From Xenococcus sp. PCC 7305 (GTDB taxonomy: Bacteria; Cyanobacteriota; Cyanobacteriia; Cyanobacteriales; Xenococcaceae), in the NCBI RefSeq assembly GCF_000332055.1, contig NZ_ALVZ01000226.1, positions 1 through 64,000 on the forward strand: DNA of 64,000 nucleotides, in the 5' to 3' direction. Position 1 is the stretch's first letter. Every line of letters begins with the position of its first letter. The notes below the pieces were generated by a model. It did not search any database and had not been told where the DNA came from. It saw nothing but the letters and a program-made list of their open reading frames with translations. Made by a program: the position numbers and the translations under genes. This document shows, in pieces, positions 633 to 16,453 of the stretch.

Positions 633-3600
633 TTAATTATGAATTTTTGAGTACCGAAGCGTCATTAACAAATACAAACAAGGAACAAAATAAAGTGCCA
701 AAAGTGTTGCTCCACCGACTCCTCCGGCAACACAAATAGCTAAAGGACTCCAAAATTTACTTCCCAAGATTAATAAAGGAATAAAACCTACTATTGTAGT
801 AATTGTCGTTGTCAAAACATGACGAGTAGCGCGAAAGATCACTTCTACTATTGCTTGGCGGTTTCCCGAAGAAGCTTGAGGATGATTGCTTAAAGAGGCT
901 AAAACTACAATAGAATCATTGATTGCAACCCCAATCAAGCCTACAATGCCTAAAATTGCCATAAATCCTAAAGGATAGTTAAACCACCATAAAGAGAATA
1001 ATCCCAAACCAATAGAGCCAATGCCGACTAAGATAATGATCCCGGCAGCGCGAAAAGAATTAAAAGAAAGAACCAGAATTGCCATCATCAAAACCAACAA
1101 GACACTCACGAGAGACATTAGATTGCCGACTGTCTGATCTCTTTCTTGGGCTTCACCGCCAATTTCGAGGGAATAGCCCGCAGGAAATTGGATATTACTC
1201 GCTTCCATTTTTTCCTTAAACTCAGCCAAAACCGTTGAAGGTAATAACCCCGCAGTGACAAAACCATGAATAGTATTCACCCTTTTCCCATTACGTCTGC
1301 TTATGCTGGCGAGTTCTGGCACTAGTTCAATTTTGCTGACCGTGGATAAAGGAATCGGCGCTAAATTACCTGTAGAATTTAAGTTATTAGGTAATAATTC
1401 TAAGGTAGTAATCTGATCTAAATCAGCGCGATCGCGATTAGTAAGACGAACTCGAACCGGTATTTCTTCTGTATCCTCGATCATAGAGCCGCCTAGGGTG
1501 CCTTCAAGATGAGCATTAAGTTGTTGGGCAATCATCGTATTATCCAGCCCAGTAAGCTTAGCCTCTTCCTCATCTAAATTGAAAGCTAATTTGGGTAAAG
1601 CATCAGATATGCTAGCACGGGTAGAGGTAATACCTTTAACTTGAGCTAAAACTAAACGAACTTTTTTCCCCAGTTCTCTGAGAATATTTAAATCAGAACC
1701 ATAAAGCCGTAGCTCAATAGGCGCTGGCAGATAAGGCCCCTGTTCCAATTGTCTGACCAATACTTGAACAGAGGGAAATTTGTGGTTAAGTTCTATTTGC
1801 AAACGAGAAATTAAGGCTGCTACTTTCTGTTGTGAATTAAGCTGGACAATACCATGAGCAAAATTAGGACGATTTGAGGTTCTTCTGGGCAAATTATAGT
1901 AAAAAGATGGGGCCTCGGTGCCTAAAAACCAATGTACATCAGTAATTTCTGGATGCCTAAGTATAATAGTACGAGCTTTTTCTGCCAAAAACTGAGTTTT
2001 TTCTAGAGAAGCCGAAGCAGGTAATTCAAACTCAATATGAAACTGATCTCTCTCCGTGGGGGGGAAAAATTGTTCGGCAAGAGTCGCAGCCTTCAGAAAT
2101 CCTGTTACTGGCAAAATAAGAGCTAATACAATTCCCAAAATAGGTTTCCTCAAGATAAAATTGAGGGAAAAGCGATAAATTTTGCTCAGATAGGCATTAG
2201 AAAAACCTTGATTCCAAAATTGAGAGTAATTTTTTCTAGCTTTTTTATTATTTAACTTAGCGAAAAAGCTTGTTTTCTCAAGTTGATTGATTCTTCCTGC
2301 CAGAGCTGGAATAATAGTTAGAGAAAGAAATAAAGAACTCAGCAGAGAAATAATTACCCCCAAACCAATAGTGCTGACAAATTCGCCTGTACTTCCTGGT
2401 AATAAGGCAATGGGAAGAAAGGTTAAAATAGTGGTGAAATTAGAAGCAAGTAAGGGAATTGCTAAATAAGTGACAGTTTGAGAAATAGCCTTTTGGGGTT
2501 TAAGTCCTTGTTTGAGTAAATGTTCTACTTCATCAACAACCACGATCGCATTATCAATTAATAAACCTAAAGCAATTACTAATCCTGTTACCGATACCTG
2601 ATGTAGAGGAATAGAACATGCACTCATCGCGCCAAAAACCATCAGTAATGATAAAGGTAAAGCAGAGCTTACTACTAGCGCCGATTGCCATCCCATCATG
2701 AAGAAAGTGCTAGCAAAAACGAGTAATGCTCCTAACGCCAGATTTTGAAATAAGGTATTGAGGCGATTGGTGACATAAATATTTTGATCGGAAATAATAT
2801 CTAAACTAATTCCTTGGGGAAGCTGTTGTCGAAATTGTTCTAAGTTTTGATGAGCTCTAATTGCCCATTGATCTATGCGTTGCGTGGTATCAATGCGAGC
2901 TGCTAGGCTAACCCCCATTTTTCCATTGATAATCGCGAGTTCTGGTGGTGGTTCTCTAATGCCTTTGGTTACTAGGGCAATATCACCTAAGCGAGCTATT
3001 TGCCCTGAATTACCGAAGCTGATGGGAATATTTCTAATCCTGTCTAAAGAATCTAATTCGGTTTCAACTTCAATGAGTAAGTCATTATTTTTGTTATAAA
3101 GTTGACCAGTGGTAATTTTGGCATCACTAAGACGAATTTGTTGTGATAATTCTTGGGGTTTGATGTTGAGAGCGGCAAGATTTTCGGGATTAATTGCTAC
3201 GATAATTTCTTCTAGGGGTTCGGCAAATAAATTTACTTCCTCAGTACCAGGTATGCTACGAATTTGTTCTTGAAATTTTAGGGCTAGGCGTCTGAGAATG
3301 GCATAGTTAGCTGGGGAATCTAAGTTCCAAGTTATCCCGACAATTAAGCTATAAGCTTTGATATCTATTTCTTTATATTCTGATTCTAAAGCATCTGAGG
3401 GTAATTGGGATGTGACATCTGCTAAAAGATCTCTCACTTCACTCCAAACCTGGTCAAAATTGCTTACAGTGTCTTTTAATTCAATGCTAATAAAAGAGCT
3501 ACCAAGTTTGGAGATAGAATCAAGGGTTTTGATTTCTTCAATTTCTAATAATTCTTGTTCTATTTTTTCTGTCACTAAAGATTCAACTCTTTGAGCGCTA

Positions 3601-3755
3601 GCCCCAGGGAAAGGAATGACAATATAGGAGCTGAGACCACTCAACTCGGGGTCTTCCATGCGCGGCAGCAATTGAAATGAAGAAATGCCCCAGACTAAGA
3701 TCAGAAAAATTGTGAGGATTAGTAGTCTAAAATTACGATAAAAAAGATGACCCAT
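633..3755 (-). CDS. RND efflux transporter, AcrB-type inner-membrane pump
   Basis: A 1040-residue proton-driven efflux permease of the hydrophobe/amphiphile RND family, the usual length for AcrB-like pumps. One N-terminal membrane segment (about 9-28) is followed by a large periplasmic region, a membrane block (about 330-490), a second periplasmic region and a final block (about 850-1035), the duplicated RND architecture. The TM4 motif GLLIDNAIVVVDE (about 393-406) carries the acidic residue used in proton relay; the second-half counterpart is GVAINDSIVVLA. It follows the adaptor gene at 3950-5290 in the same direction, separated by 194 bp holding a dispersed repeat, so the two probably form one pump. 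No TolC-type outer membrane channel is visible here. The substrate cannot be predicted; drugs, lipids and metals are all possible. Confidence 0.93.
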   Translation of the reverse strand: MGHLFYRNFRLLILTIFLILVWGISSFQLLPRMEDPELSGLSSYIVIPFPGASAQRVESLVTEKIEQELLEIEEIKTLDSISKLGSSFISIELKDTVSNFDQVWSEVRDLLADVTSQLPSDALESEYKEIDIKAYSLIVGITWNLDSPANYAILRRLALKFQEQIRSIPGTEEVNLFAEPLEEIIVAINPENLAALNIKPQELSQQIRLSDAKITTGQLYNKNNDLLIEVETELDSLDRIRNIPISFGNSGQIARLGDIALVTKGIREPPPELAIINGKMGVSLAARIDTTQRIDQWAIRAHQNLEQFRQQLPQGISLDIISDQNIYVTNRLNTLFQNLALGALLVFASTFFMMGWQSALVVSSALPLSLLMVFGAMSACSIPLHQVSVTGLVIALGLLIDNAIVVVDEVEHLLKQGLKPQKAISQTVTYLAIPLLASNFTTILTFLPIALLPGSTGEFVSTIGLGVIISLLSSLFLSLTIIPALAGRINQLEKTSFFAKLNNKKARKNYSQFWNQGFSNAYLSKIYRFSLNFILRKPILGIVLALILPVTGFLKAATLAEQFFPPTERDQFHIEFELPASASLEKTQFLAEKARTIILRHPEITDVHWFLGTEAPSFYYNLPRRTSNRPNFAHGIVQLNSQQKVAALISRLQIELNHKFPSVQVLVRQLEQGPYLPAPIELRLYGSDLNILRELGKKVRLVLAQVKGITSTRASISDALPKLAFNLDEEEAKLTGLDNTMIAQQLNAHLEGTLGGSMIEDTEEIPVRVRLTNRDRADLDQITTLELLPNNLNSTGNLAPIPLSTVSKIELVPELASISRRNGKRVNTIHGFVTAGLLPSTVLAEFKEKMEASNIQFPAGYSLEIGGEAQERDQTVGNLMSLVSVLLVLMMAILVLSFNSFRAAGIIILVGIGSIGLGLFSLWWFNYPLGFMAILGIVGLIGVAINDSIVVLASLSNHPQASSGNRQAIVEVIFRATRHVLTTTITTIVGFIPLLILGSKFWSPLAICVAGGVGGATLLALYFVPCLYLLMTLRYSKIHN

Positions 3756-3872
3756 AAGTACCTAGGCAAAATTCATTGTATATTTTGGGGTTTTGGGGGA
3801 TTAGGGGATTTGGGAATTGCGGTGCGGCCCCGGTGCCCTAAAGGATACACCTTCGGATAATTTTTAATCACC

Positions 3873-3914
3873 TAGGGAACGCGCATCGTTGGGGAAAAGA
3901 AGATAGCTAATTTC
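3873..3914 (-). repeat. Dispersed repeat, copy 1
   Basis: Read on the minus strand this stretch begins GAAATTAGCTAT and ends CCCAACGATGCGCGTTCCCTA. The same two blocks, with nearly the same spacing, occur on the plus strand at 56919-56959, with 19 of 21 bases matching in the second block. It sits between the adaptor and pump genes. The G-rich degenerate runs at about 3785-3820 resemble those next to the second copy. Confidence 0.6.
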
Positions 3915-3949
3915 AAATTTACACAAATAATTTTGCTCACCTACATAAT

Positions 3950-5290
3950 TTAATTTTCAAATGTTACCAATTGTCCCGGGACTAGACGATGAATGCCATC
4001 GGTGATTACTTGATCCTGGGGTTGGAGAGTGCCCCGAACTAAAATGCGATCGCTTTGGATCTGGAGAATTTCTACTGCTTTTTGCTCAACTTTAAACACA
4101 GATTGTTGTTCGGTGCGAATATCCTCTTGCTTCCCTAAAACGTAACAAGTCCACAAACCTCTTTCTCCTTCTACTAAGGCAGTTATCGGTAACCAATAGC
4201 CGGTCGTCTGAATCTTTTCGGTTAATTGGAGGGTGGCAATTTGTCCGGAGAAAAGCTCGATTTCTGCTCCTGGTTGGATTTTTAGAATAATGGTTAAGGT
4301 CCGAGTGCTAGGATCAAGTTCTGGCAAAATTGAGCTGACTTGAGCTTGATAGGTTCGATTGTCAATTTTTAAGGGAAAAATGTCACCTAGATCTATCTGA
4401 GCCGCATTTTGGGCAGGAACCCCGATATGGGCTTCTAATTGGCTATCTTCTACTAGTTTTAAAATAGTTTGACCCGTTTGTACGATAGTTCCTTCGTCAA
4501 CTAAACGAGCTGAGATTATTCCAGTGAAAGGAGCTTTTAAAACTGCTTTTTGAATCTCTAGTTCTAAATTAGCAATTTTTAAATCTTGCAGTTCAATTAA
4601 GGCTTTTTGCCCCTCTATTTGTTCAAAACGTGTTCCTGCTAATAATTCATCTAATTGACTTCGGTATTGATCTAAACGAGCTTGGATGGTAGCTACTTCA
4701 TTGCTCGCCTCGTCTAGTTGCTCTTGAGCAATTGCTCCTTGGGCATGTAAATTTTTGCGGCGATCGCTCTTCTCTTGGGCTAGTTTTAATTCTGTTTTTA
4801 ATTGTCTGACCTGGGCTTGAGCCGTGGCAATAGTTTCTACTCTGGAGCCATTTTCCATTTCCTGGAGCTGCGAAACCATTTGTTTGCGTTGAGCTAATAA
4901 TTCCTGTTGCGTAATTTTTAGACTACGAGTATCCAATAAAGCCAGAGGCATTCCTTTGGTCACTCTATTGCCTTGATCAACATTAATTACTGTCAATTTT
5001 CCCGGAATTTCAAAACCAAGTTCACTATTTCTTTGAGGTACGATTGTCCCTGTATAATTACGAAATACCCTGGCATAATTTACAGGAGTAATGGTTTTTG
5101 CTACAACAGGAATCAGACTAATAGATGGTGATGATTCTCTTGCTGATTTCTCGTTATTTTGCGATTGAGCAGCTAGATCAGATAAAAAAAATCTTCTTAT
5201 CGGAGTAATGAGAAAAAAACAAAAAATGAAGGAACAAATAATGATAATACTCCACAATAATCTATTTTGCCTTAACTTTCCTTGGCTCAT
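3950..5290 (-). CDS. RND efflux periplasmic adaptor (membrane fusion protein, HlyD/AcrA family)
   Basis: A 446-residue adaptor that would link the RND pump downstream to an outer-membrane channel. It has an N-terminal membrane anchor (about 12-35), then a barrel-sandwich/lipoyl-like half domain beginning ELGFEIPGKLTVINVDQG (about 84-101), a long Gln/Leu/Glu-rich coiled-coil hairpin (about 125-240), the returning half domain, and a beta-barrel region with the family pattern VDEGTIVQTGQTILKLVED. There is no lipobox cysteine, so it is anchored by the transmembrane segment. It is the promoter-proximal gene of a two-gene minus-strand unit with the transporter at 633-3755. The 343-bp upstream gap is shared with the divergent lipid cluster. 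Confidence 0.92.
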   Translation of the reverse strand: MSQGKLRQNRLLWSIIIICSFIFCFFLITPIRRFFLSDLAAQSQNNEKSARESSPSISLIPVVAKTITPVNYARVFRNYTGTIVPQRNSELGFEIPGKLTVINVDQGNRVTKGMPLALLDTRSLKITQQELLAQRKQMVSQLQEMENGSRVETIATAQAQVRQLKTELKLAQEKSDRRKNLHAQGAIAQEQLDEASNEVATIQARLDQYRSQLDELLAGTRFEQIEGQKALIELQDLKIANLELEIQKAVLKAPFTGIISARLVDEGTIVQTGQTILKLVEDSQLEAHIGVPAQNAAQIDLGDIFPLKIDNRTYQAQVSSILPELDPSTRTLTIILKIQPGAEIELFSGQIATLQLTEKIQTTGYWLPITALVEGERGLWTCYVLGKQEDIRTEQQSVFKVEQKAVEILQIQSDRILVRGTLQPQDQVITDGIHRLVPGQLVTFEN

Positions 5291-5633: not shown

Positions 5634-8600
5634 ATGAATCCTGTACCTGACTTAAAGAAAGATTCTGGGGTTTCTCTGGGACAAACGGAACAAGAGCAAT
5701 TAAAATTTCTGGAGCTTTTAAAATTTCTGGAGCTTTATCAAATCATGTTTACTGCCAGAGAAATTGACCTGCTGGAGGAGCAATATACAACTAGAGGAGA
5801 GGCTTTTTTTCACGTATCAGGAGCAGGACATGAAGCTGTTGCAACTATTAATCCTTATCTAATTCCCGAAGACTATTTGCATTGTCATTATCGAGATAAG
5901 GCTTTGATGCTGGCTCGGGGGATCTCGGTGGAAATGTTTTTCCATAGTCTTTTTTGCAAAGATGCGTCTCATTCTCGGGGGCGGCAGATGAGCGCACATA
6001 TGAGCGATCCTACGACCAATATTTTGAGTTTAGTTGGGCCTGTGGGCAATAATGCCTTACAAGCTGTGGGCGTTGCTGCTGAAATTAAAGATCAACCGCA
6101 AAACCCTCTGGTGTTTTGTTCCTTGGGTGATGGTACTAGTCAACAGGGAGAAGTTTTAGAGGCGATCGCAGAGGCCGTACGTTGGCAATTACCTGTTTTA
6201 TTTCTCATTGAGGATAATCGTTTTTCGATTTCTACTCGCACAGAGAAAAAGACTTTCTATAATTTGCTAGATGGCATAGTAGATAATTTCTATGGTTTGC
6301 CGATTCACCATTTAGAGGGTAAAAATCCCCTTCTTTGTGACCAAGTTTTCCAAAAAATTGTTTCTGAGATCAGGGAAACTCGCAAACCAGCCTTAGCCTT
6401 AATGAAGCTGGAGCGACTAACTAGTCATACCAATACGGATGATCAATCGATCTATCGTGATCGTCAAGAGATCGAACAAGTTAGACAAGAATATGATCCG
6501 ATTAAAATTCTAAGATTTGAGCTAGAAAAATTGGGCTGTGACGCTCAAGAATTAGTGTCTATTGAGGGAAATATTCGCTCAATAGTTAAACAAGCAGCAA
6601 AAGATGCTCAATTCAGTAATGAACCCCAGGCTTATTTTGCGGCTAAAGCTCCTCTCCCTCAGCATTTGTCGAAAACCGCAACAGAATATGTAGGAAACTC
6701 CGATTCTAGGCGTGTAACCATGCTGAATGCCATGAATAAAGTTTTAGGCGATCGCCTAGAGCAAGATTCTCGGGTTTTTTTGTATGGGGAGGATATTGAA
6801 GATCCCAAAGGCGATGTCTTCGGCGTTACCAAAGGATTAAGCCGTAAATTTCCTGGTCGAGTTGTTAATTCTCCCTTAAGTGAATCTACTATTGTAGGGA
6901 CTGCTGTCGGCAGAGCCTTGGCTGGCGGTCGCCCTGTCGCCTTTCTCCAATTTGCTGATTTTTTACCTTTGGCTTTTAATCAGATTGTCTCCGAATTAGG
7001 CAGTATGTATTGGCGAAGCGATGGTGGTTGGCAATGTCCTGTCATTATTCTGATTACTTGTGGTGGCTATCGTCCTGGTTTAGGGCCTTTTCATGCTCAA
7101 TCCTTAGAAGCGATCGCAGTTCATACTCCTGGTCTTGATGTGGCAATGCCTTCGACCGCTGGAGATGCAGCAGGAATGCTAAACGCTGCCTTTGATTCGG
7201 GAAGACCAACCCTATTTTTCTATCCCAAAAGTTGCTTAAATCTAGTCGATTTAGCTGCTACGACTTCCGATGATCCCCAGCGCCATTGCGTTCCGGTGGG
7301 TAAAGCCAAAATAGTTCGTGCTGGCAGTGATATTACCTTCGTCGGTTATGGCAACGCGATCGCTAGATGTTTACAAGCAGCAGATGCTCTGGATATCGAG
7401 GGCATTAAATCAGAAGTTATAGATCTGCGCTGGCTGGCTCCTTGGGACGAAGAAACAGTTCTCAAATCTGTTAATAAAACTGGAAAATTAATTGTTGTTC
7501 ATGAAGATAATCAAAGTTGCGGCATGGGTGCCGAAATATTAGCGGTAGTAGCCGAAAAATCCTCAACTCCCGTGACAGCAAGACGAGTAACCAGAGCAGA
7601 TACCTATGTTCCTTGTAATTTTGGTAATCAACTAGAGATCTTGCCTTCCTATAAACGCATTTTAGAAACAGCGGCAGACTTATTAGATTTAGATCTAGAT
7701 TGGATAACTCCCCCAGCTACAGAAGAAGGAATCTTTATGGTGGATGCGATCGGCGTTGGACCTTCCGATGAGACGGTAATTGTTCTGGAATTGGATATCT
7801 CAGAGGGAGCAGAAGTTGCCGAAGGTCAATGTTTAGGGGTTTTAGAAGCTTCCAAGGCCGCTTTTGATTTAGAAGCCCCAGTTCAAGGTGTCGTTGAGAA
7901 AATTTATGTCACAGAGGATCAAGAAGTTGCTGTAGGTCAGCCTTTATTTAAAATTCGGATTGACAAGGATCATATTCCTGCTCCGAAACCCATTACCCGA
8001 GAAGATCCTGGTCAACCAGTTATCAAAAGAAGACAAGCTGTTACTACTGCGACCCAATTGATGAGCCGGGCAACTAAATTAAAGATTGGGATTCAAGGGA
8101 TTGCCTGTGTCTTAGGCTCCAAAAATATTACTAATGAAGAAGTTGTGCAATCAATTGCCGGGAAAGAAGCGAATGATGTTTTAAAACTCACCGGAATTGC
8201 CAGCCGTCATTGGATTGAGCCAGGAGAAACGGTGTTAACTCTGGCAAAAGACGCAGCTCAAAAAGTTTTAGCGGCGCAACAAGTTCAGATTCATGATATT
8301 GACCTCATTATTTGCACTACTGGGACACCTTCTCAGATAACGCCATCCCTAGCTTGTCAATTATTGTATGAGTTGGCAGGAAGTGATTATGAATGCCCAG
8401 CTTATGATCTCAATGCTGCTTGTAGTGGCTATTTATATGCTCTGCAAAATGCCTATTTATATTTACGAAAGCATCCTTCTTCCAAGGTTTTACTAGTTAC
8501 TTCAGAAATATTATCACCTCTTTTAGATCCGCAAAATTTCGATACCCAGATTATTTTTTCCGATGGTGCAACCGCAACTATATTATGCGGGGAAGCTCAT

Positions 8601-9041
8601 TTGGATTCTTGTTCTTTTGTGGTTAACGAACCTATCTTGAGTGGCAGTGGGGAACCGTTGGATTCTTTATATGTTCCTACGGTTAATAGCAGTCAGAACA
8701 TTTCGATGAAAGGCAGAAAAGTTTTTACTAAAGCTGTCAAGAAAATGACAAGTGTTTTAAATCAAGCTTGTACGAAAGAAAATATCAAAGTTACTGAGCT
8801 TGATTTAGTGATACCCCACCAAGCTAATCAACGAATTATTGACGCGATCGCCAAAAAAATTGGTTTTCCAGAGAAAGTTGCCTCCAACATCAAACATCAC
8901 GGCAATACATCTTCAAGTTCTATTCCTATTTATCTGGCGGAAAACTGGAGCACTCTCCAAAGCAAAAAGACCCTGGCCTTAACCGCATTTGGGGGTGGAT
9001 TTACCTATGCTGCTGCTATTTTAAATAGCTTAAGAAGATAA
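5634..9041 (+). CDS. Four-domain fusion: 2-oxo acid dehydrogenase E1 alpha + E1 beta + lipoyl domain + KAS III
   Basis: An 1135-residue cytosolic fusion. Residues about 25-330 are E1 alpha, with the thiamine diphosphate signature GDGTSQQGE beginning at residue 165. About 355-685 is the E1 beta/transketolase-like half. About 700-775 is a lipoyl domain with the modifiable Lys741 in LEASKAAFD. About 815-1135 is a KAS III (FabH-like) domain with an intact triad: Cys930 in NAACSG, His1062 in IPHQAN, Asn1091 in HHGNTSS. There is no E2 catalytic or E3-binding domain between lipoyl and KAS III. Inference: a 2-oxo acid is decarboxylated on ThDP, the acyl group moves to lipoate and then directly to the KAS III cysteine for condensation, perhaps with malonyl carried by the ACP encoded next. 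An exact 18-bp tandem duplication near the N-terminus duplicates six residues. Leads the six-gene cluster and contains several HIP1 sites. Confidence 0.9.
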   Translation: MNPVPDLKKDSGVSLGQTEQEQLKFLELLKFLELYQIMFTAREIDLLEEQYTTRGEAFFHVSGAGHEAVATINPYLIPEDYLHCHYRDKALMLARGISVEMFFHSLFCKDASHSRGRQMSAHMSDPTTNILSLVGPVGNNALQAVGVAAEIKDQPQNPLVFCSLGDGTSQQGEVLEAIAEAVRWQLPVLFLIEDNRFSISTRTEKKTFYNLLDGIVDNFYGLPIHHLEGKNPLLCDQVFQKIVSEIRETRKPALALMKLERLTSHTNTDDQSIYRDRQEIEQVRQEYDPIKILRFELEKLGCDAQELVSIEGNIRSIVKQAAKDAQFSNEPQAYFAAKAPLPQHLSKTATEYVGNSDSRRVTMLNAMNKVLGDRLEQDSRVFLYGEDIEDPKGDVFGVTKGLSRKFPGRVVNSPLSESTIVGTAVGRALAGGRPVAFLQFADFLPLAFNQIVSELGSMYWRSDGGWQCPVIILITCGGYRPGLGPFHAQSLEAIAVHTPGLDVAMPSTAGDAAGMLNAAFDSGRPTLFFYPKSCLNLVDLAATTSDDPQRHCVPVGKAKIVRAGSDITFVGYGNAIARCLQAADALDIEGIKSEVIDLRWLAPWDEETVLKSVNKTGKLIVVHEDNQSCGMGAEILAVVAEKSSTPVTARRVTRADTYVPCNFGNQLEILPSYKRILETAADLLDLDLDWITPPATEEGIFMVDAIGVGPSDETVIVLELDISEGAEVAEGQCLGVLEASKAAFDLEAPVQGVVEKIYVTEDQEVAVGQPLFKIRIDKDHIPAPKPITREDPGQPVIKRRQAVTTATQLMSRATKLKIGIQGIACVLGSKNITNEEVVQSIAGKEANDVLKLTGIASRHWIEPGETVLTLAKDAAQKVLAAQQVQIHDIDLIICTTGTPSQITPSLACQLLYELAGSDYECPAYDLNAACSGYLYALQNAYLYLRKHPSSKVLLVTSEILSPLLDPQNFDTQIIFSDGATATILCGEAHLDSCSFVVNEPILSGSGEPLDSLYVPTVNSSQNISMKGRKVFTKAVKKMTSVLNQACTKENIKVTELDLVIPHQANQRIIDAIAKKIGFPEKVASNIKHHGNTSSSSIPIYLAENWSTLQSKKTLALTAFGGGFTYAAAILNSLRR
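5701..5736 (+). repeat. 18-bp exact tandem duplication inside the fusion gene
   Basis: TAAAATTTCTGGAGCTTT occurs at 5701-5718 and again at 5719-5736 without a mismatch. It keeps the frame and duplicates six residues (LKFLEL) just before the E1 alpha core. The perfect identity suggests a recent slippage event. Confidence 0.9.
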
Positions 9042-9129
9042 GTCATCCCAATGAGGCAAAAGATGAATTAGTAATACTAAAGGTTAATCAAGCTGTAAAT
9101 CAAAAATTATCAACAAAATCAAAAAACAA

Positions 9130-9393
9130 ATGACAAAAACACAAATTAACAAAAAAACTCTGTTAGAAATTCAGGCATGGTTAGTTAATTATTTAGCTAA
9201 ATCTTTGGAAGTAGAAACAACAGAAATTGATATTAAGGCATCTTTTGATGAATATTCTTTAAATTCCCATGATGCTATTTACTTAACTGGGGAATTGGAA
9301 GAATGGTTGGGATTTGAATTAGAAGCTACTTTGCTCTATGAATATACTAACATCAAAGAACTTTCTGAACATTTAGATTCGCAAGATTTGTAA
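9130..9393 (+). CDS. Acyl carrier protein
   Basis: An 87-residue free-standing carrier protein with the four-helix ACP pattern. The phosphopantetheine attachment serine is Ser46 in the block EYSLNSHDA, followed by a helix with ELEEWLGFELE, as in ACPs paired with fatty acyl-AMP ligases. Thus an acyl chain loaded by the FAAL at 13923 could be presented to the oxoamine synthase, or malonyl to the KAS III domain upstream. It lies 88 bp after the fusion gene. The canonical DSL is replaced by NSH, somewhat unusual, but the serine is kept. Not the housekeeping acpP: context and the divergent motif point to a dedicated carrier. Confidence 0.88.
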   Translation: MTKTQINKKTLLEIQAWLVNYLAKSLEVETTEIDIKASFDEYSLNSHDAIYLTGELEEWLGFELEATLLYEYTNIKELSEHLDSQDL

Positions 9394-9418
9394 TGATTAC
9401 TCTTCAGTTTTAGTCGCT

Positions 9419-9540
9419 TATATAGCAATTCTTTTTCTCGTGAGGTACAGCAAATCTAAGCTTTCGGGAACAGGGAACAGGGAACGGGGAATAGGGAATA
9501 GAAAGTACGTGTACCTCATAAATCTGAGAAACGCCATAGT
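9419..9540. mobile_element. MITE-like element with heptamer array between ACP and SDR genes
   Basis: TGAGGTAC at 9441-9448 is matched by GTACCTCA at 9511-9518. The outer flanks, TATAGCAATTC near 9420 and the reverse complement of GAGAAACGCCATA near 9538, extend it as an imperfect inverted repeat. Five heptamers of the form GGGAACA/GGGAATA fill the centre (9466-9500). No transposase is inside, so it would be a non-autonomous element. It occupies nearly the whole 156-bp gap and may affect transcription of the downstream genes. Confidence 0.6.
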
Positions 9541-9549
9541 TAAATTATT

Positions 9550-10356
9550 ATGATAATGAAAAAATCAAGTTTTTTTAAAAACAAGTTGGTTTGGATCACA
9601 GGAGCATCTTCTGGAATTGGAGAGCATCTTACTTATCAACTCGCAAATCTTGAAGCTAATTTGGTTATTTCAGCTCGTACAGAAAGTGAATTGCAGCGAG
9701 TAAAAGCTAATTGCAATAATAACGCCAATATTATGGTTTTGCCCCTTGATTTATCTGATATTAATTCAATTAAAGATAAGGTTAAAAAAGTAAAAGAAGT
9801 ATTTGGCAAAATTGATATTTTAATAAATAATGCTGGAATTGGTCAAAATGGATTTGTAGCCGATACCCAAATTAATATTTATCAGAAAGTTCTAGATATT
9901 AATTTAATAGGTACAATTACTTTGACTAAAGCTGTAGCTCCTATTCTACAAGCACAAGGACATGGTCAAATAACTATTGTTAGCAGTATTTTAGGACATG
10001 TAGTTTTGCCTAAGTATTCAGCTTATAGTATGTCTAAACATGCTTTAAATGCCTTTGCTCACACCATTAGATTAGAACTAAAAAAAGATAATATTCAAGT
10101 CCTACTTGTTTGTCCAGGGGCAACTCAAACCAATATGGAAGAGAAAGCAATTAATGGTTCTGGGAAAGTTATGGGAATAAAACCTAAAGAATATGAAACT
10201 TGGCTGCTTCCTGAAAAAGTTGCCCAAAAAATTATCATTGGTATCCAATCAGGAAAACGAGAAGTTATAATTGGTCATTGCTATGAAAAATTGGCGGTAT
10301 TCATCAATCGCTATTTTCCTTCAATCTATTTCAAATTAGCAGTTGACTTTGAATAA
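9550..10356 (+). CDS. Short-chain dehydrogenase/reductase
   Basis: A 268-residue classical SDR, cytosolic or membrane-associated. The cofactor motif TGASSGIG is at about 17-24, NNAGIG at about 93-98, a serine (VSSI) at about 147, and the catalytic YSMSK tetrad segment at about 159-163, so an active NAD(P)-dependent oxidoreductase is expected. Within this cluster the likely substrate is the 3-keto product of the oxoamine synthase, by analogy with 3-ketodihydrosphingosine reductases; this is inference from neighbours. An alternative start lies two codons in, at 9556. No clear Shine-Dalgarno is seen. This gene and the next two lack HIP1 octamers and are more AT-rich than the flanking cluster genes, which hints at a different origin. 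Confidence 0.9.
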   Translation: MIMKKSSFFKNKLVWITGASSGIGEHLTYQLANLEANLVISARTESELQRVKANCNNNANIMVLPLDLSDINSIKDKVKKVKEVFGKIDILINNAGIGQNGFVADTQINIYQKVLDINLIGTITLTKAVAPILQAQGHGQITIVSSILGHVVLPKYSAYSMSKHALNAFAHTIRLELKKDNIQVLLVCPGATQTNMEEKAINGSGKVMGIKPKEYETWLLPEKVAQKIIIGIQSGKREVIIGHCYEKLAVFINRYFPSIYFKLAVDFE

Positions 10357-10490
10357 AAGATTTTAAGCTTTACATTATTTTTTCTGTTAAAGATACAGCT
10401 TTAAAATGACAAAGAATATCATTAAAAATTAATATTAAGCAATAAAATATTTATAAATTTGTTAAACAAAAAAGAGCCTTAAGCAGAAAA

Positions 10491-11384
10491 ATGAGATATG
10501 TTTCAGGCATAATGCCACTATTTATGACAATAATTTCCTTGGCTATTGTAGTTATTGAATGGATTACACTGACAATCACTAAGAAAATTGAAAGCCATAA
10601 GGAAGGAATTGTCAATATTTCTAGTGCGGCTTTAACTTATATCCCAATTTTTATCACCAATAAATTGATAACTATTTCCTTAATGTTCTGGATTTATCAA
10701 TATAGATTATTCGATCTAAAATTTGATTGGTATGTCTGGATATTAGCCTATATAGGATATGATTTTATGTCCTATGCCATTCATTATTTATCTCATAAAG
10801 TCCGTCTTTTTTGGTGTATTCATACAGTGCATCATTCTCCAAAGGAAATGAAAGCATCTGTTGCTTTTAGAGGTTCTTTTGCCGAATTCATCCTGGCTCC
10901 TCATCTAACTCTGTGGCTTCCTATTTTAGGATTTCATCCTCTTTTGATCATAATAATTGATGGAATTGGTCAACTTTATGGTGTCCCGCTTCACCTCAAC
11001 CAACATATATTCCCAGATTCAAAATATTCCGGAATACAAAAATTCTTGATTACACCATCAGTACATAGACTTCACCATGCCAAGAATGATATTTATCTAG
11101 ATAGAAATTATGGTCTAACATTTAGGATTTGGGACTATCTATTCCAAACCTCTCAGGTAGAATTACAGCAAGAAAAACCCATTTATGGCATAAGCAAAAA
11201 CATTAACAGCGAAAACCTATTAGTTTCCCAAACTGATGAGTTTATTGAACTATGGCAAGATATCAAAAATGCTCCTAGTTGGCTTGACAAAATTAAATAT
11301 TTGGTGATGCCTCCTGGCTGGAATTATATTAATGGAGGATATACAGCTGAAAATATAAGAAACAATGCCTTATTGAAACTATAG
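10491..11384 (+). CDS. Fatty acid hydroxylase / sterol desaturase superfamily membrane protein
   Basis: A 297-residue integral membrane di-iron oxygenase. Several hydrophobic helices (about 8-28, 47-70, 80-100, 140-165) surround the histidine clusters of the family: HYLSH (about 98-102), HTVHH (about 111-115), HLNQH (about 167-171) and HRLHH (about 193-197). Members hydroxylate or desaturate lipid chains using oxygen and an electron donor. In this cluster a C4- or alpha-hydroxylation of a long-chain base or amide-linked acyl chain is an attractive guess, as with the eukaryotic SUR2-type hydroxylases; a carotenoid- or sterol-type substrate cannot be excluded. It lies 134 bp after the SDR, same strand, with no HIP1 site and AT-rich codon use. 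Confidence 0.88.
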   Translation: MRYVSGIMPLFMTIISLAIVVIEWITLTITKKIESHKEGIVNISSAALTYIPIFITNKLITISLMFWIYQYRLFDLKFDWYVWILAYIGYDFMSYAIHYLSHKVRLFWCIHTVHHSPKEMKASVAFRGSFAEFILAPHLTLWLPILGFHPLLIIIIDGIGQLYGVPLHLNQHIFPDSKYSGIQKFLITPSVHRLHHAKNDIYLDRNYGLTFRIWDYLFQTSQVELQQEKPIYGISKNINSENLLVSQTDEFIELWQDIKNAPSWLDKIKYLVMPPGWNYINGGYTAENIRNNALLKL

Positions 11385-11428
11385 TTTCATTTTTTACGAA
11401 AAAAAATAGCTCCTAAAAAACAAAAAAC

Positions 11429-13879
11429 ATGCCTAAAAATCTTCATGCTCATTGGGTAAAAACTATCGATAAACTTGTTGAAAATGGCATCAAGCAAGGT
11501 TTAAATCAACATTTTACTGATAATGAATTTCTGAATGGAAGAATTATAACTCTTCAAGATCGCAATTATGTTAACTTTGGCTCCTGTAGCTATTTGGGCC
11601 TAGAACAACATCATAAATTAATTGATGGAGTTACAGACGCAGTAAGAAAATATGGCACACAATTTTCTTCTTCTAGGGCTTATGTCGCCGTCGGACTGTA
11701 TCAAGAATTAGAAACTTTATTACAAGAGATTTTTGATAAACCTGTTGTCGTTACAGCCAGTACAACTTTAGGGCATTTATCAGCTTTACCAATTTTGATA
11801 GGAGATAATGATTGTATTCTTCTCGACTATCAAGTTCATTCCAGTGTGCAAATGGCCGCGCAAGTGCCTAAAGCTCGTGGAGTTGATGTGGAAATTCTGC
11901 GTCACAATTCCATGACGCAACTAGAAGAAACCATCAAAAAAATTAAACATAAATACGATAAAATCTGGTACTTGGCTGATGGTATTTACTCTATGTATGG
12001 AGATGTAGCACCTTTACCAGAGTTAGTCCGTTTATTGGATACTTATCCACAGCTTTATGCCTATATTGATGATGCTCATGGTATGAGTTGGACGGGGAAA
12101 AATGGTAGAGGCTATGTTCGCAGTCAAATCGACCATCATTCTAAAATGGTATTAGCAGTTTCGTTGAATAAATCCTTTGCTAGTGCGGGGGGAGCCTTAG
12201 TCTTTCCTAATGAAACTTTCACTAGCCAAGTTAAAAATTGTGGCAATACCATGATTTTTTCTGGGCCAATTCAACCACCAATGCTCGGGGGTGGCGTGGC
12301 TTCGGCTAAACTCCATTTATCAGAGGAAATTGTAGATTATCAGAATGAATTAAAGGAGCTCATTAAATATACAAATCAATGTATTACTGAGCTAAATATC
12401 CCTCAAGTTGAAATTAATGATAATCCGATCTTTTTTATTCCTGTTGGCCTAGTTAAACCTATTCAATCTTTTGTCTCTCGAATAATTAAAGATGGATTTT
12501 TTGTTAACCCTGCGGCCTTTCCGGCAACGCCAATGAAACAAGGTGGGATACGTTTTTCTCTGACTCGTCACATATTGAAACGTGATATAGAACAACTTCT
12601 TGAGCGGATTGCTTTTCACTATCCTGTAGTCTTACAAGAACATAATTTTACGGAACAAGATGTAGCCAAGAATTTCCAGATTCCTGAGTTTCAAATTCAA
12701 TCAAGTCAGGAAAAATTTGGCTTTGTTTCGCTGAAAAATCATTCATCTTCTAAGCTTGATATTCAATTTACTCGTCGCTTAAAGGACATTAATGCTCAAG
12801 AATGGGATAATCTATTTGCGACCAAAGGTAACTTTACTTACTCTAGTATTGAATTACTGGAAAAGGTTTTTACATCACAAGATAATGAGCCAGAAAATCA
12901 GTGGGATTTTTTCTATTTTATAGTCAAAGATGAAGCTGATAAAATTGTTTTAGCGACATTTTATACCTGTGCCAAAATAAAAGAAGATATGTTCTCTTCT
13001 CAAGAAGTATCAAAAAAAGTAGAAGCGATGCGTCTTGATGATCCAGATTATCTTACTGGCAAAGCAGTGATGTTAGGATGTCTGATGTCTAAAGGAGAAC
13101 ATCTTTATCTTAATCGTCAGCATTCTCGATGGAAACAGGCACTTCGTTTATTGGTTGAGCAAATTTCTCTTACGGTACAAGAATATCAAGCATCTCAGGT
13201 GTTATTAAGAGATTTTCCCTTGAATGACGATGAAGAATTAAAAAATACAATGTTTGACCTTGGTTTTGTGCAATTACCTTTACTAGATATATGTATTATG
13301 CAGGATTTGTCTTGGTCAACTCACCAAGAATATATGACTAGGTTAGGACGTAAGTATCGTTACAATGTCAAAAAAGAAATATTGGCCTATGAATCTCAAT
13401 TTGAAGTAATTATTGATTCTGAGATGTCACCAAGGGAAATTCGCCACAGTTATGAACTATATCGTCAAGTTCAACAAAGAGCTTATGAGTTGAATGTTTA
13501 TCCGCTTCCCTATGCCTTTTTTGAAGCAATTTGTCATCATCCTGACTATGATATTATGCGGCTTTATCTCAAGGATGATCCAGCATCTAGAGCTGAGGAG
13601 AAACCAGTGGCAGTTATGTTTAGCTTTGTGAATGCCGGTGTTTATTCGGCTTTAATTGTTGGTTTGGACTATCAATATTTAAGAACTCACAATATCTATA
13701 AACAAATTCTTTATCAAACTGTACAAAGATCTAGGGAGTTAGAATGTCAAACTTTAGACTTGGCTTACACCGCAGTTTTAGAAAAGAAAAAAGTTGGAGC
13801 TAGACCTCATCCGATGTGTGCCTATGTTCAATCTTTGGATCGTTATAGCCAGGCAGTACTTGATGCGATGGTAGTTTGA
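11429..13879 (+). CDS. Alpha-oxoamine synthase fused to a GNAT/FemAB-like N-acyltransferase
   Basis: An 816-residue bifunctional protein. Residues about 20-400 are a PLP-dependent alpha-oxoamine synthase (serine palmitoyltransferase / KBL / AONS family). The cofactor lysine is Lys248 in SLNKSFASAGG, and DDAH (Asp215, His217) contacts the pyridine ring. Such enzymes condense an acyl thioester with an amino acid and release CO2. Residues about 440-816 form an acyltransferase of the GNAT/FemAB-like type, with the core RLGRKYRYNVKKEI and later LIVGLDYQYL. Bacterial ceramide synthases of the Caulobacter type are also GNAT-related, so this half could N-acylate the amine made by the first half. Which amino acid is used cannot be read. 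Autoinducer (CqsA-like) or sulfonolipid-type condensations are alternatives. It lies 44 bp after the hydroxylase and 43 bp before the FAAL. Confidence 0.87.
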   Translation: MPKNLHAHWVKTIDKLVENGIKQGLNQHFTDNEFLNGRIITLQDRNYVNFGSCSYLGLEQHHKLIDGVTDAVRKYGTQFSSSRAYVAVGLYQELETLLQEIFDKPVVVTASTTLGHLSALPILIGDNDCILLDYQVHSSVQMAAQVPKARGVDVEILRHNSMTQLEETIKKIKHKYDKIWYLADGIYSMYGDVAPLPELVRLLDTYPQLYAYIDDAHGMSWTGKNGRGYVRSQIDHHSKMVLAVSLNKSFASAGGALVFPNETFTSQVKNCGNTMIFSGPIQPPMLGGGVASAKLHLSEEIVDYQNELKELIKYTNQCITELNIPQVEINDNPIFFIPVGLVKPIQSFVSRIIKDGFFVNPAAFPATPMKQGGIRFSLTRHILKRDIEQLLERIAFHYPVVLQEHNFTEQDVAKNFQIPEFQIQSSQEKFGFVSLKNHSSSKLDIQFTRRLKDINAQEWDNLFATKGNFTYSSIELLEKVFTSQDNEPENQWDFFYFIVKDEADKIVLATFYTCAKIKEDMFSSQEVSKKVEAMRLDDPDYLTGKAVMLGCLMSKGEHLYLNRQHSRWKQALRLLVEQISLTVQEYQASQVLLRDFPLNDDEELKNTMFDLGFVQLPLLDICIMQDLSWSTHQEYMTRLGRKYRYNVKKEILAYESQFEVIIDSEMSPREIRHSYELYRQVQQRAYELNVYPLPYAFFEAICHHPDYDIMRLYLKDDPASRAEEKPVAVMFSFVNAGVYSALIVGLDYQYLRTHNIYKQILYQTVQRSRELECQTLDLAYTAVLEKKKVGARPHPMCAYVQSLDRYSQAVLDAMVV

Positions 13880-13922
13880 TTTTTTCGAAAAAAGTAATAA
13901 ATTTTTATCTCTATTTATCAAT

Positions 13923-15677
13923 ATGATCAATCAAAAATTTAAGTTTTTGCCTCAACATCAATTAAATTCTATGGCTGATATTCTTAGTTATCAGGCGGCA
14001 ACTAAACCCAATGCAACAGCATATATTTTTCTGCAAAATGGGGAGAGAGAAACGGCTAGAATAACTTATCAAGAATTGGAGAAAAAAGCCAAAGAAATAG
14101 CTGTTTATCTTCAGGCATGGCAAGGAGAAAGAGCCTTATTACTTTATCCGCCTGGATTGGAATTTGTTACCGCATTTTTTGGTTGTTTATATGCAGGAGT
14201 TATTGCCATTCCTGTTTATCCCCCACGGCGTAATCAAAAGTTATCTCGCTTACTGATGATTGTTAATGATGCTGAAGCAAACTTAGCATTCACAACTACG
14301 GCAATTTATGATGATATTCAAAAAAGATGGACTGAAGAAACCAAGTTAGCCAATCTAAAATTGATTGCTACAGATACGATTGAAGCTAATAGTCAAGATT
14401 TTATTGTTAAATCCATTGCTCCTGAAAGTTTAGCTTTTTTACAATATACTTCTGGGACAACAGGAAAGCCCAAAGGGGTCATGGTTAGTCATGGCAATAT
14501 TGTTCACAATCAACAGGTAATTCATCGTGCTAGTCTGCTAAACGAGGAGAGTATTATTGTCAGTTGGTTGCCGATGTTTCATGATTTAGGATTAATTGGC
14601 AACGTTTTATATTCAGTTTATTTGGGATCTTCTATTATTTTGATGCCTCCGGTGGCCTTTCTCCAAAAACCGATACGTTGGTTAAGAGCGATCGCGAAAT
14701 ATCAAGGGAATGCTAGTGGTGGGCCTAATTTTGCTTACAATGCTTGCATTGAAAAAATTAAGCCAGAACAGTTAGAAGATCTCGATCTTAGTAGTTGGCA
14801 GATCGCTTTTAATTGTGGGGAAAATGTTTTAGCGAAAACTATAGAACAATTTAGTACCAAATTTGCTCTCTATGGTTTTAGTAAAAATTCTTTTTATCCT
14901 TATTATGGATTAGCAGAAGGAACTTTATTTGTTACGGGAAGACAAAAAAATACGGAGCTGATTATTAAAGATTTTGAGGCTACGGCTTTGGAGCAAAATC
15001 AGGTGCTTGAAAGTGCAGCAAATAAATTATCTTCTCGTCGGTTAGTTAGTTGTGGTCATTGTTGTTTGGATGATCAAGTAGTAATTGCTAATCCTCAAAC
15101 TTTAACTTCTTGCCCTGAGGGGGAAGTAGGGGAAATTTGGGTTTCAGGAAAAACTGTTGCTCTAGGATATTGGCAACAAAATGACAATGCTACATTTAAA
15201 GCTTTTCTTAAAGATAGAGTGGAAGGTCCATTTTTACGTACTGGGGATTTAGGTTTTGTATGGCAAGGTGAGCTGTATATTACGGGTCGTCTCAAAGAAG
15301 TTATTATTATCAGAGGGCAAAATCATTATCCTCAAGATCTAGAATTTACAGTACAACAAACTCATCAAGCTTTAAGAAAGAATCACGGAGCAGCTTTTAC
15401 TGTAGATATTGATGGTCAAGAGAAATTAATTATCGTTCAAGAAATAGAACGTCAGTACCGAAAAACCTTCAATAAACAGGAGCTCACTCGTCTGATCAAT
15501 AAAAATGTTACAGCTCAACATGGATTGGATATTCATACTATTCTCTTTGTCAAACCTGGTGCGATCGCTAAAACTTCTAGTGGCAAAATTCAACGTCTGA
15601 TTTGTCGAGAAATATTTCTTCGAGGAGAATTTATTAGTTTAGGTGAGACCAAACAATTAGCAAAGCTCTCTATGTAA
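13923..15677 (+). CDS. Fatty acyl-AMP ligase (FAAL)
   Basis: A 584-residue ANL-superfamily enzyme that adenylates a free fatty acid and, in the FAAL branch, hands it to an ACP rather than CoA. Motifs: phosphate loop YTSGTTGKPKG (about 177-187), FHDLGLIG, the YYGLAEGTLFVTG block (about 321-333) typical of FAALs, RTGDLG (about 439-444), and the C-terminal KTSSGKIQR with the catalytic lysine. The FAAL reading rests on the FHDLGLIG and YGLAEGTLFVTG blocks and on the dedicated ACP upstream. It closes the cluster, followed by a hairpin region and the convergent KH gene. It has HIP1 sites, unlike the three genes before it. Likely role: activating the acyl chain for the oxoamine synthase or for N-acylation. 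Confidence 0.92.
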   Translation: MINQKFKFLPQHQLNSMADILSYQAATKPNATAYIFLQNGERETARITYQELEKKAKEIAVYLQAWQGERALLLYPPGLEFVTAFFGCLYAGVIAIPVYPPRRNQKLSRLLMIVNDAEANLAFTTTAIYDDIQKRWTEETKLANLKLIATDTIEANSQDFIVKSIAPESLAFLQYTSGTTGKPKGVMVSHGNIVHNQQVIHRASLLNEESIIVSWLPMFHDLGLIGNVLYSVYLGSSIILMPPVAFLQKPIRWLRAIAKYQGNASGGPNFAYNACIEKIKPEQLEDLDLSSWQIAFNCGENVLAKTIEQFSTKFALYGFSKNSFYPYYGLAEGTLFVTGRQKNTELIIKDFEATALEQNQVLESAANKLSSRRLVSCGHCCLDDQVVIANPQTLTSCPEGEVGEIWVSGKTVALGYWQQNDNATFKAFLKDRVEGPFLRTGDLGFVWQGELYITGRLKEVIIIRGQNHYPQDLEFTVQQTHQALRKNHGAAFTVDIDGQEKLIIVQEIERQYRKTFNKQELTRLINKNVTAQHGLDIHTILFVKPGAIAKTSSGKIQRLICREIFLRGEFISLGETKQLAKLSM

Positions 15678-15780: not shown

Positions 15781-16212
15781 CTATGAATTAATGATTGGTC
15801 GATTAGGCTTACTAGGTCGTTCTCTCGAACCTCTTCTGCGGTCGGAATCTCGCGACCCTTTGCGTCCTTCCCGACCACGAGGTGCATCACCGTTAAATGA
15901 CTTTTCTTTAGAGGAAAGATCTTCGTTGCCGTAGATATCTAAATGTATGTGCTGATTGACATTAGCCGCAGCAGTCTTCAAAACAGTTCTAATTGCTTTA
16001 ATATTACGACCACCACGCCCGAACACCTTACCCTTATCATTGGTGTCGAAAGCAACTCTTAGCCAAAGTTTCTTGGTACTGGCCACCTGTTCGCAATGAA
16101 TAGACAGGGTTTGGGGATCTTCCAAAAAAGGCTCTAAAAGAAATGACACCAGCCCCGCGTAATCAGGACTGGCATTGTTCTGACTAGCAGATAATGCTGG
16201 GTCGTTAGGCAT
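15781..16212 (-). CDS. khpA: KH-domain RNA-binding protein (KhpA/YlqC-like) with basic tail
   Basis: About 143 residues. The KH fold shows the GxxG loop in [15 protein letters not shown] (about 77-91), as in YlqC/KhpA proteins, which bind RNA and are commonly encoded next to rpsP. The C-terminal 45 residues are a low-complexity Arg/Ser/Gly-rich extension, longer than in firmicute KhpA and probably an extra RNA contact. I chose the start at 16212 because its ATG overlaps the end of rpsP by 8 nt, suggesting translational coupling; an upstream in-frame ATG at 16224 would overlap by 20 nt. Co-transcribed with rpsP. Confidence 0.88.
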
Positions 16213-16453
16213 GAACTTGCTCAAAAACTTTAGCTCTAGTTAAAATGTTTTTTACGGTATCAGAAGGTTGTGCTCCTTGTTGCAGACGTTTCACGATCGC
16301 AGGAACATTTAGTCTAGTCTCATCAGTTCTAGGATTATAAAAACCCAATTCTTCAATGGGGCGACCATTCCGGCGTCTTTTACTTTCGATCGCGACTATC
16401 CGATAGCTAGCCTCTCTCTTTTTTCCAAATTTCTTTAAACGGATTTTTACCAT
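16205..16453 (-). CDS. rpsP: 30S ribosomal protein S16
   Basis: An 82-residue ribosomal protein with the classic start [20 protein letters not shown] and the block [15 protein letters not shown]. It is part of the 30S subunit, near the 5' domain of 16S rRNA. Length is normal for bacteria. It is followed with overlap by the KH-protein gene, a widely conserved arrangement. Confidence 0.98.

Follow-up and report, generated by a model that had tools for sequence, protein, structure and literature searches.

Does a cyanobacterial operon built around an alpha-oxoamine synthase (AOS) make a sphingolipid, or a lipid that resembles one by analogy? The question is raised by positions 5634-15677 (+ strand) of a 64,000-nucleotide stretch of contig NZ_ALVZ01000226.1 (hereafter the window), from the 5.93 Mb genome of Xenococcus sp. 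PCC 7305 (family Xenococcaceae). Six intact co-directional genes, with gaps of 88, 156, 134, 44 and 43 bp, encode from 5' to 3' an E1alpha-E1beta-lipoyl-KAS III fusion, an acyl carrier protein (ACP), a short-chain dehydrogenase/reductase (SDR), a di-iron hydroxylase, an AOS fused to a tandem GNAT (AOS-GNAT) and a fatty acyl-AMP ligase (FAAL). An initial annotation of this DNA had named six consecutive plus-strand genes of these classes with intact catalytic motifs. All six were found intact by Pfam and coordinates, and the motifs were confirmed by reading the six protein sequences; domain calls were based on Pfam and NCBIfam. The cluster is real, conserved, uncharacterised and of lipid type; we use the sphingolipid label for it by analogy and do not imply membership. 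Its E1-lipoyl-KAS III fusion is a more novel finding than the cluster around it.

Descent and fold of the AOS-GNAT protein

The AOS-GNAT protein (11429..13879, +; 816 amino acids, aa) had the Pfam domains Aminotran_1_2 in its AOS half (aa 1-405) and Acetyltransf_6 in its GNAT half (aa ~431-816). The AOS contained a DDAH motif and the pyridoxal phosphate (PLP) lysine within LNKSF. Across 40 AOS sequences H137, D214, H217, K248 (the PLP lysine) and R375 (the carboxylate-binding arginine) were invariant. The AlphaFold model of this half (pLDDT 93.2) matched Alb29 (Z 48), BioF (Z 47), serine palmitoyltransferase (SPT, Z 46), CFAT (Z 41.3) and CqsA (Z 40) in the PDB, and the modelled fold is certainly that of a true AOS. 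Since SPT, BioF and KBL scored alike (Z 44-48), the structural modelling proposed in the initial annotation gave the fold without telling these enzymes apart, and structure was not used for AOS function.

Phylogeny was more discriminating. The 26 fusion proteins formed one clade, joined to PRK07505 with a support of 99, and SPT, KBL and BioF lay together on the opposite side of the tree. The grouping with KBL or BioF that had been named as a possible refutation was thus not observed. As the tree came from a quick search and has some long branches, the clade is less securely linked to PRK07505 than it is set apart from SPT. PRK07505 (NF005697) also gave the best NCBIfam score of the AOS, 262 bits, under its cut-off of 342. 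Against the SPT models NF047600, NF047599 and NF047603 the AOS reached 157, 128 and 93 bits, far under the cut-offs of 640, 500 and 670. By its sequence, the AOS is non-SPT by descent and a member of an uncharacterised AOS-GNAT fusion clade. A canonical SPT identity was considered and rejected on the tree position and the SPT model cut-offs.

These results bear on the reading closest to the initial annotation, a true sphingolipid (ceramide) pathway in which the AOS would be a divergent SPT. Its chemical logic is that of the Rhodobacteria set of acyl-ACP synthetase, ACP, SPT, reductase and N-acyltransferase (PMC9386255), the Rhodobacteria-type gene order was observed in three loci (L219, L222, L223), and there are reports of two cyanobacterial ceramides (PMC8895605). 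We nevertheless regard it as improbable: the AOS clade stands apart from both SPT groups with a support of 99, the scores against the SPT models are low, and the reductase and N-acyltransferase come from other families or are not detectably related. Membership in serine-based sphingolipid synthesis is therefore not supported. The one cyanobacterial AOS tested as SPT, from Nostoc punctiforme, gave no SPT product and groups with BioF (PMC8895605).

A sulfonolipid (capnine-type) pathway with a cysteate acyltransferase is highly improbable. CFAT is an AOS relative with an alignable structure, and many fusion hosts are Bacteroidota, but it was among the weaker matches of the AOS both in sequence (1.9e-13) and in structure.

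The GNAT half was modelled (pLDDT 94.8) as a full tandem GNAT with two lobes, of about 386 aa. The GNAT/FemAB-like acyltransferase of the initial annotation was thus confirmed in its fold and its fusion to the AOS, and is corrected to a full tandem GNAT of FemX/FemA type. The nearest fold was FemX (Z 22.7 over 308 residues, root-mean-square deviation 4.8), followed by the N-myristoyltransferases (NMT, Z about 17.7). Only the fold comparison was informative here, as phmmer found nothing meaningful for this half in the PDB. A profile of the GNAT half had no match in 12 genomes with a curated SPT, in a search for which a bCerS positive control was absent. A tandem GNAT of this modelled fold would suit N-acylation of the amine that the AOS half is predicted to form.

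Two further sets of AOS were recognized. The source genome encoded another AOS (L008, C136:4459-5472) within a 2613-aa open frame, which clustered with other cyanobacterial AOS and in neither the BioF nor the SPT clade. E. coli plasmids (matches H26, H28-H35) carried AOS ~30% identical to that of the window, most of them annotated beside an MFS transporter.

Partner enzymes and their recurrence

The FAAL (13923..15677, +; 584 aa) had a Pfam AMP-binding domain, the YTSGTTGKPKG motif and a PF23024 C-terminal domain. Its PDB matches below 1e-60 were FadD32, FadD23, a fatty acyl-adenylate ligase and related chains, and by these matches it is kin to fatty acyl-AMP ligases, not to CoA ligases. The ACP (9130..9393, +; 87 aa; PF00550, PP-binding) is real, as previously proposed, with its serine within LNS, not LDS. 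The SDR (9550..10356, +; 268 aa; adh_short) carried the TGASSGIG and YSMSK motifs and scored 222 bits with NF004825 (PRK06181), above the cut-off of 215. It is a classical SDR of this subfamily and a predicted ketone reductase. The 3-ketosphinganine reductase model KdsR (NF049977, cut-off 400 bits) was outside the 25 best models for this protein (<125.5 bits), and the SDR of an Aureispira locus (L082) reached 130.9 bits with it. The membrane hydroxylase (10491..11384, +; 297 aa; FA_hydroxylase, PF04116) had intact histidine boxes, HYLSH, HTVHH and HRLHH.

The closest AOS-GNAT relative among the matches listed was in a second Xenococcaceae genome (locus L075), where FAAL and an ACP kin to that of the window stand upstream of AOS-GNAT. 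Identity to the window copies was 78% for AOS-GNAT, 68% for the ACP and 63% for the FAAL. The conservation of these three genes indicates that the cluster is not a chance assembly. At L075, the stretch between ACP and AOS (8323-9630) contains frames of 82 and 348 aa that share one reading frame, are separated by a stop and have no Pfam match.

The family was surveyed through the best 80 loci from one scan of species genomes. At least 80 fusion loci were found, in Bacteroidota, Myxococcota, Gammaproteobacteria, Acidobacteriota and one Xenococcaceae. Five further copies came from three genomes of the cyanobacterial phylum, in a different class from the window. In 386 sampled genomes of the phylum there was no other full-length match within the window's class, and within the Xenococcaceae two of 27 genomes had one.

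The partners of the window operon recurred beside distant AOS-GNAT genes. In four loci (L076, L078, L080 and L083) a FAAL-ACP didomain protein began 0–65 bp 3' of AOS-GNAT. In Aureispira L082 an SDR of the same NCBIfam subfamily as that of the window (257 bits) was upstream of AOS-GNAT, and a close homologue stood likewise in Aureispira L085. In Candidatus Albibeggiatoa (L084) a hydroxylase 55% identical to the window's followed AOS-GNAT after 19 bp. That these partners recur in varying combinations across phyla would be difficult to account for if they did not work on one product. The initial proposal of a sphingolipid-like cluster therefore stands in part: a FAAL-ACP pair would feed an AOS joined to an N-acyltransferase-type fold, together with an SDR and a hydroxylase, and these pairings recur in distant phyla. 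Its other part, the AOS as SPT or the operon as a known bacterial sphingolipid system, does not agree with the tree or with the SPT and KdsR models.

Next to the fusion clade branched an unfused AOS (L232 7632-10048). The gene immediately after it encodes a protein of 372 aa that has no Pfam match. Its HFDHAIADG motif resembles those of condensation-type acyltransferases, and the protein may again be an acyl-transfer partner.

The genes around the orphan AOS-GNAT copies open a different reading. In Bacteroidota (L103-L154), genes for DUF7793, a PAS-domain sensor and a LuxR-type response regulator recur beside them, which suggests sensory control. In place of a membrane lipid, the product could then be an alpha-amino- or alpha-amido-ketone that is secreted as a small signal or serves as a secondary metabolite, comparable to the alpha-hydroxyketone signals made by the AOS enzymes CqsA and LqsA. 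HlyD-type adaptor and RND permease genes lie upstream of the window operon and divergent from it (633-5290, -; 343-base gap), as could be expected for such a product. However, the AOS scored 75.8 bits with the CqsA/LqsA model NF005526 (cut-off 428), and CqsA was structurally more distant (Z 40) than SPT or BioF (Z 46-47). The FAAL, ACP, hydroxylase and NMT-like tandem GNAT favour long chains. We consider a signal unlikely. The RND/HlyD pair is a possible, unproven exporter, and none was seen at the L075 locus.

The E1-lipoyl-KAS III fusion

The first gene of the operon (5634..9041, +) encodes 1135 aa with E1_dh, Transket_pyr, Transketolase_C, Biotin_lipoyl and ACP_syn_III/_C domains. They form an E1alpha part (aa ~36-332), an E1beta part (~361-667), a lipoyl domain (~709-774) and a KAS III (~817-1131). 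The thiamine diphosphate motif GDG...N, the lipoyl lysine in EASKA and the KAS III Cys, His and Asn were all present. The E1-KAS III fusion of the initial annotation is thus real; the lipoyl domain, central to its mechanism, had been missed.

The KAS III was compared with six cyanobacterial housekeeping FabH proteins, using E. coli FabH numbering as aligned by HMMER. It keeps the condensing triad C112, H244 and N274, with the Cys in AACSGY. In FabH, W32 and R151 clamp the adenine of CoA and F87 limits the primer. The CoA-adenine residues W32/R36/R151, present in six of six FabH, were replaced by D/L/F in the window and by E/L/F in a fusion from the same genus (G386). At position 87, F in all six FabH, both fusions had T, and a third fusion (G789) had I. 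From the loss of the CoA site and of F87 we infer that the lipoyl arm is the acyl source of this KAS III and that its pocket accepts bulkier primers. The protein would transfer the acyl directly from lipoyl to the condensing Cys, and so prime a branched chain without CoA.

In the tree of E1beta sequences, the window E1 fell among cyanobacterial E1-lipoyl and E1-lipoyl-KAS III proteins; this group was joined by E1 from Streptomyces plasmid clusters (100/99), and the housekeeping cyanobacterial pyruvate dehydrogenase E1beta split off with 100/100. The tree carries a long-branch warning and was built without QncN/QncL. In the Streptomyces clusters (L233 11935-26226, L234 11878-25884 and L235 11935-25896) a fused E1alphabeta gene adjoins a megasynthase that starts with lipoyl-E2-ACP-ketosynthase (KS), domains that were checked in L233 and L234. 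Genes for pabB, chorismate mutase, prephenate dehydrogenase and cyclodeaminase are also present, and we read these clusters as streptogramin-type. Their lipoyl-E2-ACP-KS loading module would be an in-line 2-oxo acid dehydrogenase serving as starter loader. Pristinamycin II starts from an isobutyryl unit (PMC6963833), and the same has been suggested for virginiamycin M (PMC9636800).

Glycolyl-ACP formation in the quinocarcin and scleric acid clusters, by QncN/QncL and SclQ1-4, follows a logic of E1, lipoyl, acyltransferase and ACP (PMC6335953). By analogy, the window fusion could load the adjacent ACP with a short acyl group (acetyl, or glycolyl derived from a ketose phosphate) for use by AOS or GNAT. 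The ACP gene directly 3' of the fusion gene is consistent with this. Such loading is nonetheless quite unlikely: the known systems pair lipoyl with an acyltransferase domain, not with KAS III, the condensing His and Asn are intact though needless for plain transfer, and the FAAL is available for ACP loading. The window E1 moreover belongs to the streptogramin-type group of the tree.

A search for relatives of the fusion sampled 390 genomes of the window's class and gave strong matches in four other genomes. One (G789) had a complete fusion, 39% identical and standing alone, and in two (G797 and G763) the matches run off contig ends. The fourth (G780, L253 628-5097) had E1alphabeta, a lipoyl-E2 and a FabF-type ketosynthase as separate consecutive genes, by sequence a split relative of the same idea. 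The fusion of G386 is 72% identical and lies beside a methyltransferase-like gene. A search of plasmids gave no full-length E1-KAS III match.

Proposed pathway and comparison with known systems

In the pathway that we propose, the E1 domains would decarboxylate a 2-oxo acid, likeliest a branched one (e.g., 2-oxoisovalerate), and acylate the fused lipoyl arm. The KAS III would move the acyl group to its own Cys and condense it with malonyl-ACP, giving a branched fatty acid primer. A long fatty acid would be activated by the FAAL and loaded on the dedicated ACP, and the AOS would condense the acyl-ACP with an amino acid, with loss of CO2, to a 2-amino-3-ketone. The fused tandem GNAT would N-acylate the amine, the SDR would reduce the ketone and the di-iron enzyme would add a hydroxyl. 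All substrates, the order of the steps and the product are our proposal; in Caulobacter, N-acylation has been proposed to come first, before reduction (PMC9386255).

A ceramide-like product is likely. That the operon makes an N-acylated long-chain 2-amino-ketone or -alcohol lipid of this kind, with enzymes that descend separately from those of known sphingolipid synthesis and with priming by E1-lipoyl-KAS III included, has in our judgement an even chance of being correct. Only tentatively do we propose that the fusion is a self-contained, CoA-independent starter, which turns a branched 2-oxo acid into beta-ketoacyl-ACP with KAS III replacing E2, and that the branched chains it provides in this operon enter a new class of ceramide-like lipids, made without SPT by AOS-GNAT fusions in cyanobacteria and several other phyla.

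Several observations weigh against this pathway. AOS-GNAT is an orphan gene in most Bacteroidota and thus not strictly tied to FAAL, SDR and hydroxylase as partners, and the sister locus L075 has no E1-KAS III, SDR or hydroxylase. The fusion occurs without AOS-GNAT in the genome of G386 and at the locus of G789, so that it is the window operon alone that links the two. The G789 protein keeps W32 and R36, with V at 151, and its CoA site is therefore only partly lost. The E1 substrate is a putative one, assigned from relatedness and from a GRQM motif. GNATs of the FemX type can draw on aminoacyl-tRNA, so the donor may be of another kind than a fatty acyl thioester, and we know of no product or activity for any member of the AOS-GNAT clade. 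Among open-licence papers we found nothing relevant on AOS with FAAL or GNAT, or on E1/lipoyl with KAS III or loading modules; others may exist.

If the pathway is true, ceramide-like lipids would have a second biosynthetic route of independent origin, with the widespread AOS-GNAT family of no assigned function at its centre, and the question of cyanobacterial sphingolipids would become testable. The E1-lipoyl-KAS III fusion would also offer a new way for 2-oxo acids to prime fatty acid synthesis that needs neither CoA nor E2 and is useful for branched lipids in phototrophs.

Downstream, the operon is flanked by KH/rpsP genes in the opposite direction (15781-16453, -). Promoter and terminator scans were at chance level and were not used.

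The Rhodobacterial sphingolipid genes (AasR, AcpR, SPT, CerR/epi, bCerS/aca; PMC9386255) share with the window an acyl-AMP-type ligase and a dedicated ACP leading to an AOS, a reductase and an N-acyltransferase. However, the window AOS is in a different clade and fused to its acyltransferase, identity between the FAAL and the SPT-adjacent ligases is only about 30%, a classical SDR takes the place of the epimerase-type reductase, and a hydroxylase and the E1-lipoyl-KAS III are added. We do not count the operon as a Rhodobacteria-type member, because its AOS and reductase are of different families and no relative of its acyltransferase was detected in that set. PRK07505, the nearest named AOS group, is single-domain, separated by long branches, has other neighbours and is likewise without an assigned function.

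The QncN/QncL/QncM and SclQ1-4 systems (PMC6335953) resemble the fusion in combining E1, lipoyl, an acyl-transfer domain and ACP, but the window has KAS III for the acyltransferase domain and all parts but the ACP on one chain. Streptogramin-type starter loading shares the fused E1alphabeta, of the same clade, and a lipoyl domain that would pass acyl towards a ketosynthase. It differs in that E2 and ACP separate lipoyl from KS, the parts lie on more than one protein and the synthase is a modular polyketide synthase-nonribosomal peptide synthetase. With FabH, the window KAS III has the family and the Cys-His-Asn triad in common, whereas it lacks the adenine-clamping residues and the F87 gate, and is fused to its presumed acyl supplier.

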